NCBI GenBank assembly: GCA_023053685.1
Contig: JALIGW010000001.1
Span: 49,147,859-49,211,858 of the forward strand
DNA from: Diadophis punctatus similis
Lineage: Eukaryota; Chordata; Lepidosauria; Squamata; Dipsadidae
Length of the DNA: 64,000 nucleotides
Direction: 5' to 3'
The first letter of the stretch is position 1; the number at the start of each line of letters is the position of its first letter. The translations under genes and the position numbers were made by a program. The notes below the pieces were generated by a model. That model searched no databases. It saw nothing but the letters and a program-made list of their open reading frames with translations, and was not told where the DNA came from. Below are positions 13,901-61,141 of this stretch, piece by piece.

Positions 13901-16353
13901 TATATATTCAACATCAGTATTTGTTTTACAAAAAAGTTGGTGATTAAGACCAGAGAGTTCTCAGCAAAATAGAATGCCTGTTTCAGTAGTGGGTTTTAAA
14001 TGCCATTGCTACCGGTTCGCTCGTGCGCATGTGCGCACTTGTGCGCAGAAGCGTCCTGGGCAGGTGGGCGGAGCGTCCTGGGTGGGTAGGCAGAGCCTCC
14101 CTCAACCGCCGCTACCGGTTCGCCGATCCAGGCCGAAACGGTAGCAACCCACCGCTGGCCTGTTTGCTTCATCACAAGACACATTAACGCATAAAGGGCG
14201 ACCACTGGAACTGGGCAGCCAATAAATTTATATTAATAAATAATGAAAGAAGAGAGCATAATTATTTTTCCATCACTGAATAATATTTTGGAGCACATAC
14301 TAAAAGCAACAGTAATGATATTGACTAATGCATTGGCAGAATAACATATAATATTGACTCTTAAAAAACTAAATTGGTTCTTTTGTCATAGTTTTAATGT
14401 GTGAAAATCAGTGTAATATAATGTTTAGACCAGAGGAGCAGGTTCAAGTCCCAATTCAACCATAGACCTCCCTGAATGACTCTGGACCAATCATTCTCTC
14501 CAAGCCCAACCATATTCATTACGGGGATACAATTAGGGAACACCCTTATTTAATCTGGCCTGAACTGTTACAAGACAAATAAAGAACAGTAACATAAAAG
14601 AAACAAGAATAACAGCACCAGCAATCACAAATGGCTTATAATCTACAGTAGCTAGTTAAAAAGCATTTCTTCCTGTATTATCAGTGCCTGTGATGTGCTG
14701 AGGAAGCCATTTTGCTTACATGTCCACAAATGGGCACTTAGAAGAGGTGCCAGTGTTTTAAGGCATGCTTGAAAGATGAGGAATTGGGATCATGTGGACT
14801 TTAGGAGGTAACCAGGAGCAGGTGTGATGATAGAGAAGGGTGTCTGTTAGATCCTATTAAGATGACACTGATATGGAGAGACGTCTATGCATCATATATT
14901 TCTATATCCAGATTTATTTATTAAATAATATATAGTTCTCTACCCAGAGAACATGTTTTCAGACACATTTGCTGGAGCAAACTGCAGGTAAATGGTCAAG
15001 AATGCTAGGAGAATTGTTTATTGATTACAAACCATTTATATTGCAAGGACTCCAAGGAAATAGCTGGAGAAGATAATTTGTCATTGTCTCCTTTCAACCA
15101 GAGAAACAATAGAAACATTAATGTATGCTACGAGCATTTGGGGAGGAAGCTTTTAATCATGCAACCAACTTAGAATTTGTTTACAGAACTGCGTTAGGTC
15201 TAATGTCATCTTTAATCTCCCTGTATTCTCACCATTGCATCTGTTGGGAAGGAAAATGAAGTATAATTTAAAGTGTTTTCTGATTGTTTTTAGAAGGAAA
15301 AGGATGTCTACAACTAAAGATATTAGCCTTTCAGGGAAAGTGTGTGATCTTCAGAGAATGCTTTTCAGAGAACTGCATCTAGATCAGTGGTTCCCGTGTG
15401 GCCCACGCCCCACAGGGGGTAATTTGATTTTTAATGGGGGCAATTGGAACCTTGTTTAAACCAAGTTAATGGCCTTTTAGACTTTCTTCATATGAGTATG
15501 AGTTCACTTTTTGAATAGTAAGAATTTGGGAAAAAGGTTTTTCAACCAATTCTCGCATTTATGGCCATCACAAAGGTTACATAATTGACATTTGTGTGCT
15601 TCATAACCAGCTTCCAAACAAGCCTATGGATATTCTCAGTCATCCAAGTCATGGTTGTCCCAAAGATGCTTTTTCTCAAGAAGTGGACTGGACTTTCTGT
15701 TTTTTTCTTTGAAGACGTTTCACTTCTCATCCAAAAAGCTTCTTCAGAGCTGAAGCAGCTTCTTGGATAAGAAGCGAAATGTCTTCAAAGAAAAAAACCA
15801 GAAAGACCAGTTGCCTGTTGGAAAAAAAAGCACCCTTGGGACAGAGTAAATGGAGAAAACAGCAGTAAAATTGCAAGTTGTGGTCATGTGATATCTTACT
15901 TAATGACCTATGCTGATTTGCTTAACAACAAAAGCAGAAGTGATGCAAGTACACACACATGTAGTGTACACACACACTCAGTACACTAAAATATCTTGAC
16001 CTATAAAATTTAGTTTGCAGCAATAGGGTAATGGACCCATCACAAGTGAATTCCTCCTCTTAATTTTAAGAAGAAATTACAGATGTGTGAAGTTCAATAT
16101 ATGCAAACTTACTTTTTTCAGGAAAATGCCGTTTTTCTTTAGGATGAGGAGGAGTTATTTTTATCCAGGATGTCCTGCCACTGTCATACTCCTTTTTTTC
16201 TTCTTGGTAGTTCTCTACTGAAGCCCGATTACTTTGTGGATAATGTTTTTTCTGGGGCCTTAGCCACGAAGTTTCACTCTTTCCTTCTAGCAAGCATCTC
16301 GATTCCCTCATCTTATTATATTCAAGCAAGCGCTTTTTCACATCTTCAGCCAT
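10620..16353 (-). CDS. SPATA45: SPATA45 (spermatogenesis-associated 45), two coding exons
   Basis: Minus-strand gene. The main exon is 16353 down to 16113: 80 codons plus one base, ending at a GTAAGT donor (16112-16107). The last exon is 10648 down to 10620, after a pyrimidine-rich acceptor ending CTTTCAG, and encodes NAIFGWRP and TAA. Joining in phase 1 rebuilds Asn, giving a tail HFPEKNNAIFGWRP and an 89-residue protein. Human SPATA45 as I recall it has 98 residues, ends in NNAIFG, and shares the motifs KRES.CL, LR.QK.H.P and GR.SWIK. The match at the split codon and in the tiny exon is strong support. The ATG at 16353 is preceded in frame by TAA, so the start is constrained; a probable acceptor at 16380-16381 implies an upstream noncoding exon. 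The protein is small, soluble and highly charged, with no domain I can assign. Function is unknown; human expression is testis-biased. The 5.5 kb intron holds two inverted SINEs, two hAT MITEs and a TA-flanked MITE. Confidence 0.87.
10951..10989. repeat. (AC)n microsatellite
   Basis: About 19 AC units, inside the SPATA45 intron. Confidence 0.95.
11021..11155. repeat. Palindromic repeat, GGTGCTCTCT family, copy 1
   Basis: GTCCTTGGTGCTCTCTAAAC at the left is inverted as GCTCAGAGAGCACCAAGGAC at the right. CATTTCATTACCTAATCTAG lies inside the left arm. The design recalls Penelope-like element termini, but the assignment is tentative. Confidence 0.6.
11455..11625 (+). mobile_element. tRNA-derived SINE with CR1-like tail
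   Basis: GCTGCTGTGGCGTAGAGGTA and GGTTGTGAGTTCGATCC look like pol III A and B boxes; the region between resembles a tRNA anticodon arm. The 3' half, GGACTAGATGACCTGCAAGG and CTTCCAACTCTG, matches CR1 3' ends, suggesting CR1 mobilisation. Confidence 0.8.
12046..12208. mobile_element. hAT MITE, CAG-AGTGGGTT family, copy 2
   Basis: Termini AGTGGTGGGTTGC and AGAACCCACTACTG, with flanks ATCTGCTT and ATTTGCTT (7 of 8). The core has CTTCTGCACATGCGCAGAAG. It lies in the SPATA45 intron. Confidence 0.83.
12350..12568 (-). mobile_element. Squamate tRNA-derived SINE
   Basis: On the minus strand: GTGTAGTGCTTAAGGCATCC (A box), AGACTGTGAGTTCCAATCCC (B box), then AGCCCTAGGAAGGAGGTAGT in the body. This body is shared with 1815-2000. 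Confidence 0.7.
12571..12954. mobile_element. TA-flanked MITE, GTATTTTTCGGAGTATA family, copy 1
   Basis: Starts CTGTATTTTTTGGAGTATAA after TA and ends with TACTCCGAAAAATACGG before TA, consistent with Tc1/mariner-type insertion. The core holds repeated TTTTTTCCAGCCCTAA units. It lies in the SPATA45 intron. Confidence 0.75.
13178..13340 (-). mobile_element. Inverted second copy of the CR1-tailed SINE
   Basis: Almost identical to the complement of 11455-11625, lacking only the first few bases. The pair forms a 1.7 kb-spaced inverted repeat in the SPATA45 intron. Confidence 0.8.
13984..14157. mobile_element. hAT MITE, CAG-AGTGGGTT family, copy 3
   Basis: Termini CAGTAGTGGGTT and AACCCACCGCTG with a perfect 8 bp duplication GCCTGTTT (13976-13983, 14158-14165). 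It contains CTACCGGTTCGC near both ends. It lies in the SPATA45 intron. Confidence 0.88.
14166..15639. other. SPATA45 intron, little recognised
   Basis: AT-rich. A fragment near 15385-15460, CAGTGGTTCCCGTGTGGCCC, resembles the terminus of the hAT at 21009. Nothing else stands out. Confidence 0.45.
15640..15815. repeat. Palindromic repeat, GAAGACGTTTCACTTCTCATCC type
   Basis: CTTTGAAGACGTTTCACTTC is inverted as GAAGCGAAATGTCTTCAAAG about 70 bases on, and the flanking arms also pair. Repeats with this phrase are common near Penelope-like retroelements as I recall; no coding part is present. Confidence 0.55.
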
Positions 16354-21000: not shown

Positions 21001-21143
21001 GTTTACACCAGTGGTTCCCAAAGTGGGCGGTACCGCCCCCCGGGGGGTGGTGGAAACCCTTAGGGGGGCAGTGAGAGGCAAGAGTGGCAACAGGGGGGCG
21101 GTGAGAGGGGCCAGGGGGGCGGTAGGTGGTTTGTCATGCTTTT

Positions 21144-21277
21144 GCACTTGAAGCTCCCTCGCGTTCCACGCTCTTGTGTGCAGAGCAGCCCATTCTGAAA
21201 GAAAACACGAGATGTTTTCTTTCAGAATAGGCTGCCCTGCACCCAAGAGCGTGGAATGTGACGGAGTTACAAGTGCT
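21144..21277. repeat. Imperfect palindrome in the hAT element
   Basis: The left arm, from about 21144 through GAAAGAAAACA, is the near complement of the right arm, from TGTTTTCTTTCAGAAT to ACAAGTG at about 21277. It could fold into a hairpin with arms of about 60 bases. It directly precedes the captured gene fragment. Confidence 0.7.
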
Positions 21278-21409
21278 AGATACTGAGCACGGCACAGCGA
21301 TGAGGAAAGCCGACCGCTCCCGAAGCTGCTCGGGCAAGCACTCGCAGACCCATGGGAAGGCCCCACTGCGGGACCTGCATGTGCGCGGACTTTCCCGCCC
21401 GGCGTCCCC

Positions 21410-21422
21410 ATCGCCTAGCAAC
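21410..21422 (+). promoter_or_regulatory. Near-consensus RFX X-box in the captured fragment
   Basis: ATCGCC-T-AGCAAC matches the RFX X-box consensus GTNRCC(N0-3)RGYAAC at every position except the first base. It lies 31 bases before the RSPH14 ATG. X-boxes close to the start codon are a hallmark of ciliary genes, so the capture probably includes the original promoter as well as the exon. Confidence 0.5.
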
Positions 21423-21453
21423 CAGCGTGCAATTTGGTGGGCTCCCCTCCGGA

Positions 21454-21652
21454 ATGGGGCACCCACAGATCTCAGCCCAACTGCCCCCCAACATCGACCC
21501 CACCAAGGCGCCTGTGGCCTTCGGCCGCCAAGGCCTCCCCAAGCTCAATGAAGAGCTGCAGCACCCCGAGCTGCTGACGCGGCAGCCGGCCTTGATGGTG
21601 CTCTGCGACCTGGTGCACGACCCGGAGAATGCTTACCAAGCCATCGGTCTGG
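21454..21652 (+). pseudogene. RSPH14: RSPH14 first coding exon fragment inside hAT element
   Basis: Reading from ATG 21454 gives MGHPQISAQLPPNIDPTKA, then GLPKLNEELQHPELLTRQPA, then LMVLCDLVHDPENAYQAIGL, ending at a GT donor (21653) within a glycine codon. My recall of human RSPH14 has PPDIDPTKA, LNEELQ, LLTRQKALMALCDLMHDPE and a glycine at the matching place. RSPH14 is an armadillo-repeat protein of the radial spoke of motile cilia and sperm flagella. Only this exon is present; no downstream exon was found here. The frame is intact across 66 codons, so capture or insertion may be recent or the frame simply short enough to survive. It also stays open upstream to 21352, but that part does not resemble RSPH14. 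It is a fragment, not a functional gene, though it could feed a chimeric transcript. Confidence 0.88.
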
Positions 21653-21683
21653 GTGAGCGGCAGCGGCCTGGCCACAGCTGGTG

Positions 21684-21933
21684 GGAGGGAAGAAGGAAAG
21701 AAAAAGGAAAGGAAGAAAAAGAAAGGAAGAAAGAGGGAGGGAGGAAGACAGAAACAAAGAAGGAAAGATGGTAGGTAGGAAGGAAGACAGACAGAAAAAG
21801 AAAGGAGGGAGGGAAGGGAAGGGAGGGAAGAAGGAAAGAAAAAGGAAAGAAAGAAGGAGGGAGGGAGGAAGAAAGAAAGAAAGATGGTAGGAAGGAAGAC
21901 AGACAGAAAGAAAAAGATGGTAGGTAGGTAGGA

Positions 21934-21964
<31 letters not shown>

Positions 21965-22080
21965 AAGAAAAGATGTTAGGAAAGAAGGAAGACAGAAAGA
22001 AAGAAAGAAAAGAAAGAAAGATGGTAGGAAGACAGAAAAAGAAAGAAAGAAGGGGGAAGGTAAAGAAAGAAAGAACGAAA
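21684..22080. repeat. Purine microsatellite (GGAA, GAAA, GACA units)
   Basis: About 400 bases of imperfect GGAA/GAAA/GACAGACA repeats on the plus strand, inside the hAT element just after the RSPH14 donor. It lies in what would be intron 1 of the captured fragment and explains the long open frames of Ser/Phe/Leu on the minus strand. Confidence 0.95.
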
Positions 22081-22997
22081 GACTTATGACCACAATTGAG
22101 CCTGACATTTTGGTTGCTAAGCAAGAGCGTTATTAAGTGAGTTTCACCACACTTTACAAGTTGGCCACGCCCACCCGGTCACCTGACCACTAAGCCATGC
22201 CCACCTGAGGGGGTGGGGTGGGGGGTGGTGAGGATGAGTTTGTAGCACCATTGGACTGAAAAAGTTTGGGAACCACTGGTTTACACAGCAGCTGGTAGGA
22301 AAGCAAAATGGAGGAGTTTGCTATAGCTTTGGGATCAGCAAATAGGACTGGAACTTTTATTGCTTTTTGCCATTTCAAAAACTGATGGTTAGTACTTTAA
22401 TGTGACAGTGCAAAAATGCCTTAAGTAATTGCAATTCTTTCACCCAGTAAAGATGTTTCCAGACATTAGTGGTGGACTGGTGGTTTCTACCAATAGATCA
22501 TAAGAAATTTGCATTGGGTTAATTGATGGCCAATATGTATGACTATCATAGCAAAACTATATCTCTTCCAATACTGTAGAAACTAACAGAATCCCAGTTC
22601 TGTACTATGAAAAATCATATAGAATTGTTTTCAGTTTTTTAAAGAAGCAAAAAAAGTAAAATAACATAAAAATGCTGAAATTGCCAATTTTCCCAGTGTA
22701 CTCTGGAACAAAATCAAGATTTTGCAACAAAATCTTGCAAAAATTGTGGTTTTGGAGAATTTGCTCAGAAGTGATAATAGTTTGCATATCAGGTCATCGG
22801 GATAAAAAGCTATTTAAAACTTTAATTGGGTTCTTTAGATTTTTTTAAAAAAATTCAAGCCTGAATCCAATGCCTTTCAAGAGCCAACTATATATATAAA
22901 AAAGCAGGAAACAGCACCAGATAATAATCAGAAAGGAAATAAAATTCTATTATTTAAGACTGGCAGGGCAAGGGGCTACATATAAACACTGACAGAA

Positions 22998-23899: not shown

Positions 23900-24590
23900 A
23901 GACGCATGATGTAGCAATCTGTGAAAGCTGAGAGCCTCTCAAAATGACGCGGGACCAGCTGCCACGCCAAACCTTTCCACGTAGCCGAAGGGGAGGCCTC
24001 GGCGAACGAGACGCACCACAACCCCAGCCCCTAATCGAGGCCGGGTAGCCTGGGAGCCCTTTTGGCGCAGGACCCAGCCCGGCCTCGTTTCTCCACGATT
24101 GGCGGAGCCGCGATAGCGCCAACACGTCTCCGTCCCCTTATTGGCTTAGAACCTCTCCTTTGGAACGGCTCCCGATCGCAGAGGAGACTAAGTGCGCATG
24201 CGGAAGCCGGCATCGATTCTTTGGTGACTCCGAGGTGCCCGAATTGAGATGCGCTCTTCCTTCAATCTCTGCCTGGAGTCACTGGGATGACCGTTGGCGG
24301 GTGGGGGAAGCGAGATTGAGCTCAGCCAATCTTAAGAGATGGTTGAGATGAGAAGTGAGGGCTAAATGCAAAGCGCGCCGAGGAGAGCAAGCGAAGCATC
24401 CCCAAAGCGAAGGCCGGGCGGGAAGGCAGGTTGGAAGTGGCCGCGGGCACACCTGCGTGGGGAGGCGGAAGGGAAAGGGGGCGGCGCGTGTAGCGGTTCT
24501 GCTTGCGGTAGACAAGAGAGATTCCTAGCAGGGGAACCTGCCGGCAGGTAGGCTTGGGCGGGGCGAAGGCCTCAGGTCGGGGGAGCGAGA
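23900..24590 (+). promoter_or_regulatory. FLVCR1 CpG-rich, TATA-less promoter and 5' UTR
   Basis: The 690 bases before the FLVCR1 ATG are GC- and CpG-rich, unlike the AT-rich surroundings. Inverted CCAAT boxes (ATTGG) lie at 24098-24102 and 24140-24144, and an Sp1-type GGGCGGGGC at 24556-24564. No TATA box is visible. Transcription probably starts between about 24150 and 24450. CCAAT boxes in this orientation also suit bidirectional promoters, and human FLVCR1 has a divergent noncoding transcript, but no such RNA can be shown here. Confidence 0.75.
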
Positions 24591-43487
<18,897 letters not shown>

Positions 43488-47976: not shown

Positions 47977-50171
47977 AATTGAAAACAAACTAAAAATCTT
48001 TTGTTTAGGGTCATTGTTATTGGGCCATTGTTGTTGAAGCTGAAATTCCTCTTAATCTTTCGCATTTTAGCAGAGGCCTGAAGGTTTTGTGCCAAAATTG
48101 ACTGAAATTTGGAACTATTCCTAATTCCCTCCACCTTGACTAAAGCCCCAGTTCTAGCTAAAGAAAAGCAGTCCCAAAGTATAATGCTGCTGCCACCATG
48201 CTTCATTGTGGGTATGGTGTACCTTTGGTGATGTGCACTGCTGTTTTTGTGCCAAACATAGTTTTATGGCAAAAAAAGTTCAACCTTGGTCTCATCAGAC
48301 CATAAGACATTTTCCAACATGCCTTTGTCAGACTTGATGTAGGCTTTTACAAAATGTAGCTGGCCTTGGGTGTTCTTCTTTGTAAGAACTTCTGTCTTGC
48401 CATTTTATTTTTATTTTTTTATTTTTTTATTTTGTCATGCATGTACAGTATAGTAGTTGTTTGTATAAACATAAGTAAAAAGTACCAATAACAGAGAACA
48501 ATAGGGCAGTAGGACAGGGATGGTAGGCACGATGGTGCGCTTATGCACACCCCTTACAGACCTCTTAGGAATGGGGTAAGGTCTATTGTAGACAGTCTAA
48601 GGTTAAAGTTTGGGGGGTTAGGGGAAGAAACCAGAGTCAGGTAGTGCATTCCCGGGATTGATCACTCTGTTGCTGAAGTCATATTTTCTGCAGTCGAGTT
48701 TGGAGCGGTTTACATTAAGTTTGAATCTATTATGTGCTCATGTATTGTTGCGGTTGAAGCTGAAGTAATCATGGACAGGAAGGACTTTTTGATATATGAT
48801 TTTATGAACTACATTTAGATCAGATCGGAGGTGACGTAGTTGTAAATTGTCTAATCCCAATATTTCAAGTCTGGTGGAATAAGGTATTTTATTGCGAGCA
48901 GAGGAGTGGAGGACTCTTCTTGTGAAATATTTCTGGACTCTCGATTGTATTAATGTCTGATATGCAGTGCGGGTTCCAGACAGGTGAACTGTATTCCAGA
49001 ATTGGTCTAACAAATGTTTTGTATGCTCTGGTTAGCAGTGTAATATTGCCAGAGAAGAAGCTAAGCAAGATTAGATTAGCAACTCTTAGAGCCTTTTTGA
49101 CAATGTTGTTACAGTGGGCTCTAGCACTTAGGTCGTTGGATATGAGTACTCCAAGGTCTTTGACAGAGTGAGGGTCATCTACAAGTTCGTTTCGTCCAAG
49201 TTTGTATTTTGTATTCTGATTCTTTTTGCCATGTGTAAGACAGAGCATTTGTTGGTTGAAATTTGAAGTTGCCAGTTGTTTGACCATTCTGTTACATGGT
49301 CAAGGTCTTTTTGAAGGGTAGTAGCATTGTCAGTGTCAGTGTCATTGTCAGATGATGTTAAACTATTTAACATCATCAGCAAAGAGAATGCAGTTGCTTA
49401 TAATATGATCACAAAGATCGTTTATGTAGAGTATGTAGAGTGTTGGTCCTAGAATACTGCCTTGAGGGACACCACTGTTGACAGGAGCTTGACAGGAGTT
49501 GACATCCTGCCCTGCAGTCCAGATGTATTCTTGTAGCTCCTTTAATGTTGCTGTAGGACCCTTGGTAGCCTCTCAGACCAGTTTTATTCTTGTTTTTTCA
49601 TCAATTTTTGATGGACATCCAGTTCTTTATAATGTCACTGTTGTGCCATATTTTCACCACTTGTTGATGACTGTATTCACTGTGTTCAAGGGTATATCCA
49701 ATGCCTTGGAATTTTTTTTGTACTTTTTTCCTGACCGATACCTTAACAATGAGATTCCTTTGATGCTTTGTAAGACCATGCCTTCAATGCCTCTTACAGC
49801 TTTTGCTGTAAGAGGCAACTGAATAAATGCCAGAAAAAAATCCTACTAAAACAGCTGAACTTTATGTGAGCTTGATCAGAGTCACTTTAATTGATGGCAG
49901 GTGAATACTGCTACTATTTAGCAAAAGTTTGAATGTGATTGGTTAATTCTGAACAGAGCTATATCTCTACTTATAAGAGGGTGTGCACACACTCATGCAG
50001 TCATATTATTCTAGTTTTTTTTACCCCCTTTAAATATTTGTTTGTTTTTCAATTGAATTGCACAGCTTGTTATATTAAAGGTGGAAAAAATCAGAAGTAA
50101 TTTTTCTTGCACTGATTCTTTTACATCTCAAAAATTTGTCATTTTAACAGAGGTGTGTAGATTTTTTTATA

Positions 50172-52400: not shown

Positions 52401-52525
52401 CAAGCAATTTCATGTCAGCCTCATTCATTTGGCGGGAGCAGGGGGCAGAATGGAGCAGGCTTGCTTGACGGGACACTGACCAGGGTCTGTCTTCTGTCGG
52501 ACTGCTGGTTCCTTGAGAGCTCACA

Positions 52526-61141
<8,616 letters not shown>

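Follow-up and report, generated by a model that had tools for sequence, protein, structure and literature searches.

An apparent high-copy hAT-type transposon family carrying the start of RSPH14 in a snake genome

Gene pieces captured by DNA transposons

DNA transposons that carry pieces of host genes reportedly include Turmoil-1 of C. elegans and the Pack-TYPE elements of plants, which belong to other host groups and apparently to other element families than the one described here. In excerpts of a study of animal Pack-TIRs, 370 such elements are counted in 100 genomes, of which 208 are hAT elements and four are multicopy, and gap filling is proposed as the route of capture for most of the single-copy cases (PMC8277862). 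The same excerpts describe hAT-N8_XT of the western clawed frog, which captured the CAPSL 5′ UTR and is present at three loci (PMC8277862). In bats, Helitrons have amplified the promoters of 15 genes to 4,690 copies, and one of them, HelibatN3, carries the NUBPL promoter, six codons, and a splice donor, for which exon trapping was shown experimentally (excerpts of PMC4778049). Hundreds of decayed copies of a hAT element with histone H3 have been described from Pseudocercospora fijiensis (excerpts of PMC6710886). For snakes, a repeat review places hAT-Charlie among the transposons that dominated snake genomes, and its available excerpts contain no word beginning with "captur" and no phrase "gene fragment" (PMC8303610).

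We analyzed a window of 64,000 nucleotides (C1:49147859-49211858) and searched the Diadophis punctatus similis genome from which it comes (1.78 Gb in 419 contigs). Very probably, the window holds a member of an apparently non-autonomous hAT-type family of high copy number with a 407-bp piece of RSPH14, which was likely caught once and spread by cut-and-paste transposition. The host-gene piece lies between the ends of the element and the parent gene lies elsewhere, on contig C362, as in a Pack-TIR of the hAT kind (Pack-hAT).

Like hAT-N8_XT, this is a hAT element with a host-gene piece between its ends, with different duplications, and with a parent gene that persists. Unlike the frog element with its three loci, however, its exon pattern is found at 928 places, and its piece comprises a start codon in an open exon, preceded by a likely promoter and followed by a splice donor (frog element from excerpts of PMC8277862). 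With HelibatN3 it shares the state of a high-copy transposon that carries a host promoter, first codons, and a splice donor, whereas HelibatN3 is a Helitron with six codons and the present element has terminal inverted repeats and 66 complete codons and is known from DNA alone (bat element from excerpts of PMC4778049). The fungal histone H3 element resembles it in that a captured host-gene piece was amplified and then decayed, but a transcript or retrocopy was inferred as the source of the histone piece, whereas the piece described here is genomic, with upstream and intron sequence (fungal element from excerpts of PMC6710886).

A preliminary description of this locus had regarded capture by DNA transposons as little documented in vertebrates. 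That view has to be corrected, because animal Pack-TIRs are published, although few of them are multicopy (excerpts of PMC8277862). The Pack-hAT kind is already known; this element stands apart by how many copies a vertebrate genome has of it and by its combination of likely promoter, exon, and donor. Among the papers inspected by title and start of abstract, in the literature outside subscription journals and Repbase, none reports a transposon that carries RSPH14, and literature of this range, again outside subscription journals and Repbase, yielded no capture of a gene start by a vertebrate hAT element at such a copy number. A hAT exon at 928 places would show that gene starts can be distributed in mass by cut-and-paste transposons and not by Helitrons alone.

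The element in the window and its copies in the genome

At their termini, hAT superfamily elements have short inverted repeats that follow the CAGNG type. Inverted ends of this type and 8-bp duplications are both present at the locus (Table 1), as the preliminary description had claimed, and the duplication in the window is perfect. The element is one of two pairs of ends with duplications that were recovered from the 64-kb window in a scan for 12-bp inverted ends (at most three mismatches, 150 to ~4000 bp apart) flanked by TA-centred 8-bp duplications. The second pair delimits a 557-bp hAT-type element (2086-2642; duplication GTATAGGT, ends CAGTGATGGCGAACCT), and a hAT-like end CAGTGGTTCCCGTGTGG at 15377-15420 is preceded by ATCTAGAT, its partner end being absent from the scan. 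Rfam at gathering score gave no matches across the window.

Table 1. Features of the hAT-type element and its captured RSPH14 piece, in window coordinates
Feature	Position	Strand	Evidence or remark
hAT-type element with 14-bp terminal inverted repeats at both edges	21009..22278	+	
Left 8-bp target-site duplication GTTTACAC	21001..21008	.	sequence inspection
5′ terminal inverted repeat CAGTGGTTCCCAAA	21009..21022	+	also in 39 other copies, at most 2 mismatches in 22 bases
Palindromic module whose two 64-nt arms are 88% complementary	21144..21276	.	stops just 5′ of the captured piece
407-bp captured RSPH14 piece with upstream stretch, exon 1, and start of the intron	21283..21689	+	collinear with donor on C362
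X-box-like site ATCGCCTAGCAACC, likely bound by RFX (GTCGCCTAGCAACC in the family consensus and the donor)	21410..21423	+	
Open first coding exon of RSPH14, ending in phase 1	21454..21652	+	protein similarity
GT splice donor	21653..21654	+	kept in 39 of 40 copies
Purine-rich simple repeat 3′ of captured piece	21684..22082	.	
3′ terminal inverted repeat TTTGGGAACCACTG	22265..22278	-	sequence inspection
Right 8-bp target-site duplication GTTTACAC	22279..22286	.	sequence inspection

A 33-mer from the exon, allowing up to three mismatches, matched 928 places genome-wide and a 34-mer made of the left junction and upstream sequence matched 698, with none for the reversed-pattern control in either case; both figures are counts of pattern matches rather than of whole elements, and the 928 should include the donor exon (two mismatches) and count two-piece variants such as L068 twice. 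Because the exon pattern matches at 928 places, we conclude that the gene start was likely captured a single time and then likely spread by the element through cut-and-paste transposition. A pattern from the 3′ end of the window copy matched two places in the genome, and this count is uninformative on the size of the family because the window copy is without ~10 bases near its 3′ end that other copies carry.

With the element as query, the best 40 of 5084 candidates were scored and gave 125 matching pieces at 40 loci. We read 40 copies (39 fetched loci and the window copy), which are the best matches to the window and not a random sample. A perfect 8-bp duplication flanks 37 of these copies, seven of eight bases agree in two (L029 and L034), and five of eight agree in one (L047); for five copies, the duplications were read from extra stretches at their 3′ ends. 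Among the 34 duplications that were tallied (perfect or with one mismatch, the window included), all have a central TA and 31 are different. All 34 have the form nnnTAnnn, the target described for TcBuster, as for a Buster-type element (excerpts of PMC3499496). The same span is captured in 40 of 40 copies, which fits a single founding capture, as we infer. The genome therefore holds what the preliminary description had anticipated for a multicopy element, namely several copies that have the same ends and RSPH14 piece, with 8-bp duplications that are perfect in 37 of the 40 read.

Several copies vary in layout. L068 (C1:263838500-263841000) has a second captured piece in inverted orientation. 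Extra units of the palindromic module are present in L016, L017, L018, L020, L021, L022, L023, and L024, where query positions 136-274 matched more than once. The longest copies read, L029 and L035, are related, exceed 2.2 kb, and owe the excess mostly to simple repeat as far as seen.

The captured exon and its donor gene

Comparison of the exon translation with PDB sequences by phmmer gave E=2.8e-22 to 9fqr_Fj (query residues 3-67) and E=7.6e-18 to 8j07_T (residues 1-67), both of them Radial spoke head 14 homolog. Exon residues 1-67 were also scored against protein candidates, of which 99 of 103 matched, the most similar protein being P0001 (90%), and the named snake RSPH14 proteins were similar at 89% (Naja), 88% (Laticauda), 85% (Candoia), and 84% (Erythrolamprus). 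These PDB and snake matches bear out the earlier proposal that the element contains the first coding exon of RSPH14. The proposal that this exon is intact and ends in a GT donor likewise holds, with its limits now refined to those in Table 1: the coding part is 199 nt long, comprises 66 complete codons, and ends in phase 1 (CTG G/GTGAGC). The captured piece also includes 171 bp upstream of the ATG.

A genome search with RSPH14 residues 68-340, in which each of the 12 candidates was scored, found five matches within ~105 kb of C362, every one of them on the minus strand. The remainder of RSPH14 thus matches C362 only and not the surroundings of the element, and the single donor gene with its exons elsewhere, which the preliminary description had looked for, is present on that contig. 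Combined, the C362 matches span residues 1-340 of P0002. A stop is listed inside two of the five stretches; the one in the exon-2 stretch falls beyond the residues that match, probably outside the exon, and no stop interrupts the alignment of the other stretch. Donor exon 1 is located at C362:2772408-2772608 (L054), and its protein is 95.5% identical to the family consensus.

The element consensus and the donor align from the upstream stretch through the exon to 37 bp into the intron, and similarity ends at both junctions. The left junction is the end of the palindromic module and the right junction is the start of the simple repeat, with short shared sequence at the junctions (CTGAGC; GGGAGGG). 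Gaps aside, the element differs from the donor at 9 of 146 upstream, 7 of 199 exon, and 0 of 37 intron positions; the exon differences are nonsynonymous at codons 36, 45, and 65 and synonymous at codons 7, 20, 32, and 47. The upstream stretch of the donor is without 28 bp that the element has. Because the captured piece has upstream sequence and an intron start collinear with the donor, its origin is genomic rather than from mRNA, in agreement with the preliminary description.

In ten 10-kb stretches of C362 around the donor, we found no further members of the element family beyond the donor itself. By eye, a short palindromic hAT-like insert was noticed in donor intron 1 (L054), a few hundred bases 3′ of exon 1; CAGTGTTTCCCAACC and ATCTAGTC form its ends on either side.

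Origin, decay, and likely promoter of the family

The capture likely occurred by template switching into the RSPH14 donor while a hAT element was being repaired or replicated, aided by short homology; this proposal follows the mechanism put forward for animal Pack-TIRs (excerpts of PMC8277862). The captured piece then likely spread by cut-and-paste transposition in trans, predicted to be driven by a hAT transposase supplied from elsewhere. Among 984 candidates for hAT dimerisation domains in the genome, 150 were scored and all of these matched, several in frames of more than 600 codons. The ends of the element were found at none of 22 hAT loci inspected (1.5 kb on both sides of the domain for 12 and ~1 kb on one side for 10).

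Since a genuine RSPH14 first exon is present, one could in theory take the locus for the RSPH14 gene or for a copy of it made by processing, by Helitron capture, or by segmental duplication instead of a hAT element, an idea to which we give next to no credence. The gene itself is rejected because RSPH14 residues 68-340, and with them the later exons, match C362 only, and a processed copy or pseudogene is rejected because upstream and intron sequence are included. Helitrons make no target-site duplication and have no inverted ends. Inverted ends with their own 8-bp duplications, 37 of 40 of them perfect, fit neither a Helitron nor a segmental duplication, and both were rejected on these grounds. 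A capture by a hAT element could also have had a different history, in which the element acquired the RSPH14 piece within a different snake lineage before it entered this genome by horizontal transfer. The family exon consensus equals Crotalus adamanteus P0114 except at codon 45 and is thereby closer to it (one residue) than to the RSPH14 of its own genome (codons 36, 45, and 65), and the 28-bp upstream gap of the donor is not shared by the element. Nevertheless, the same pattern is expected if the capture predates changes in the own RSPH14 lineage, and the upstream and intron sequences are otherwise very similar to those of the donor (9/146 and 0/37 differences), so we judge horizontal transfer to be unlikely. 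In the captured piece, copies differ from the consensus at a median of 2.0% of non-CpG and 17% of CpG sites, and the donor differs from it at 13 of 282 non-CpG and 3 of 100 CpG sites. From this divergence of the donor versus the copies, it is likely that the capture predates the average insertion. The close copy pairs L013/L014 and L019/L032 are separated by a tree path of ~0.02 and have different duplications.

Another account would have the captured exons kept by selection as coding sequence, as a family of new short genes, and an intact exon frame is indeed found in 25 of 40 copies, in 24 of them together with the GT donor. Exon changes amount to 189 nonsynonymous, 135 synonymous, and 12 stop changes versus 250, 154, and 12.6 under a neutral expectation that was drawn from the noncoding part of the same copies, with shared changes counted per copy and six long copies shortened. 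The nonsynonymous deficit arises mainly at non-CpG sites (48 versus 99 expected), and this shortfall may reflect weak constraint on source copies. However, stops occur at the neutral level, and synonymous changes are below expectation too, including those at non-CpG sites (34 versus 54 expected). Four copies (L018, L020, L021, and L023) share a stop at codon 26, and because they group together (97/97 support) and have four different duplications, this subfamily spread without need for an open frame. The motif RQPxLM, which represents the family state at codon 45, was found in 0 of 175 proteins collected from database searches. In view of these observations, selection for a coding function is very improbable, and the captured exon of the hAT-type family decays about near-neutrally.

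The 171-bp upstream stretch is likely a promoter. The motif GTCGCCTAGCAACC, common to the consensus and the donor, begins 47 bp upstream of the consensus ATG and 44 bp upstream of that in the window copy, and it resembles an X-box, the type of site that RFX factors bind. The site is exact in 12 of 40 copies, and GTYRCCN1-3RGYAAC fits 18; the other 22 copies, including that in the window, do not fit. A search of the literature outside subscription journals and Repbase found no paper on RSPH14 with an X-box and RFX.

We predict that a sense insertion would be able to act as a mobile promoter with an exon, initiating transcripts in ciliated cells or testis and joining its exon to a neighbouring gene by splicing. 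That the genome holds hundreds of RFX-responsive copies of a ciliary promoter with a first exon, whose sense insertions give ciliated or testis expression and an RSPH14 N terminus, is a tentative and rather doubtful proposal. If true, a mobile ciliary regulatory module would have been seeded through a snake genome by a cut-and-paste transposon. The donor gene and many copies of different ages are together in one genome, and with junctions that are fixed and readable, the origin of the capture becomes testable, as does the frequency with which host transcripts take up a mobile first exon.

In the window, the element copy lies on the + strand ~2.3 kb before an open frame on the same strand (24552-25304) that contains the first exon of FLVCR1 (E=6.5e-72 to Heme transporter FLVCR1). 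In principle, splicing from the element to FLVCR1 would be possible. An open frame at 52517-52954 on the + strand resembles the start of vasohibin-2, which would fit FLVCR1 synteny, and a frame at 48889-49299 on the - strand looks to us like the end of a LINE reverse transcriptase. At 39002-39911, the window also contains a GC-rich tandem repeat that is open in several frames on both strands.
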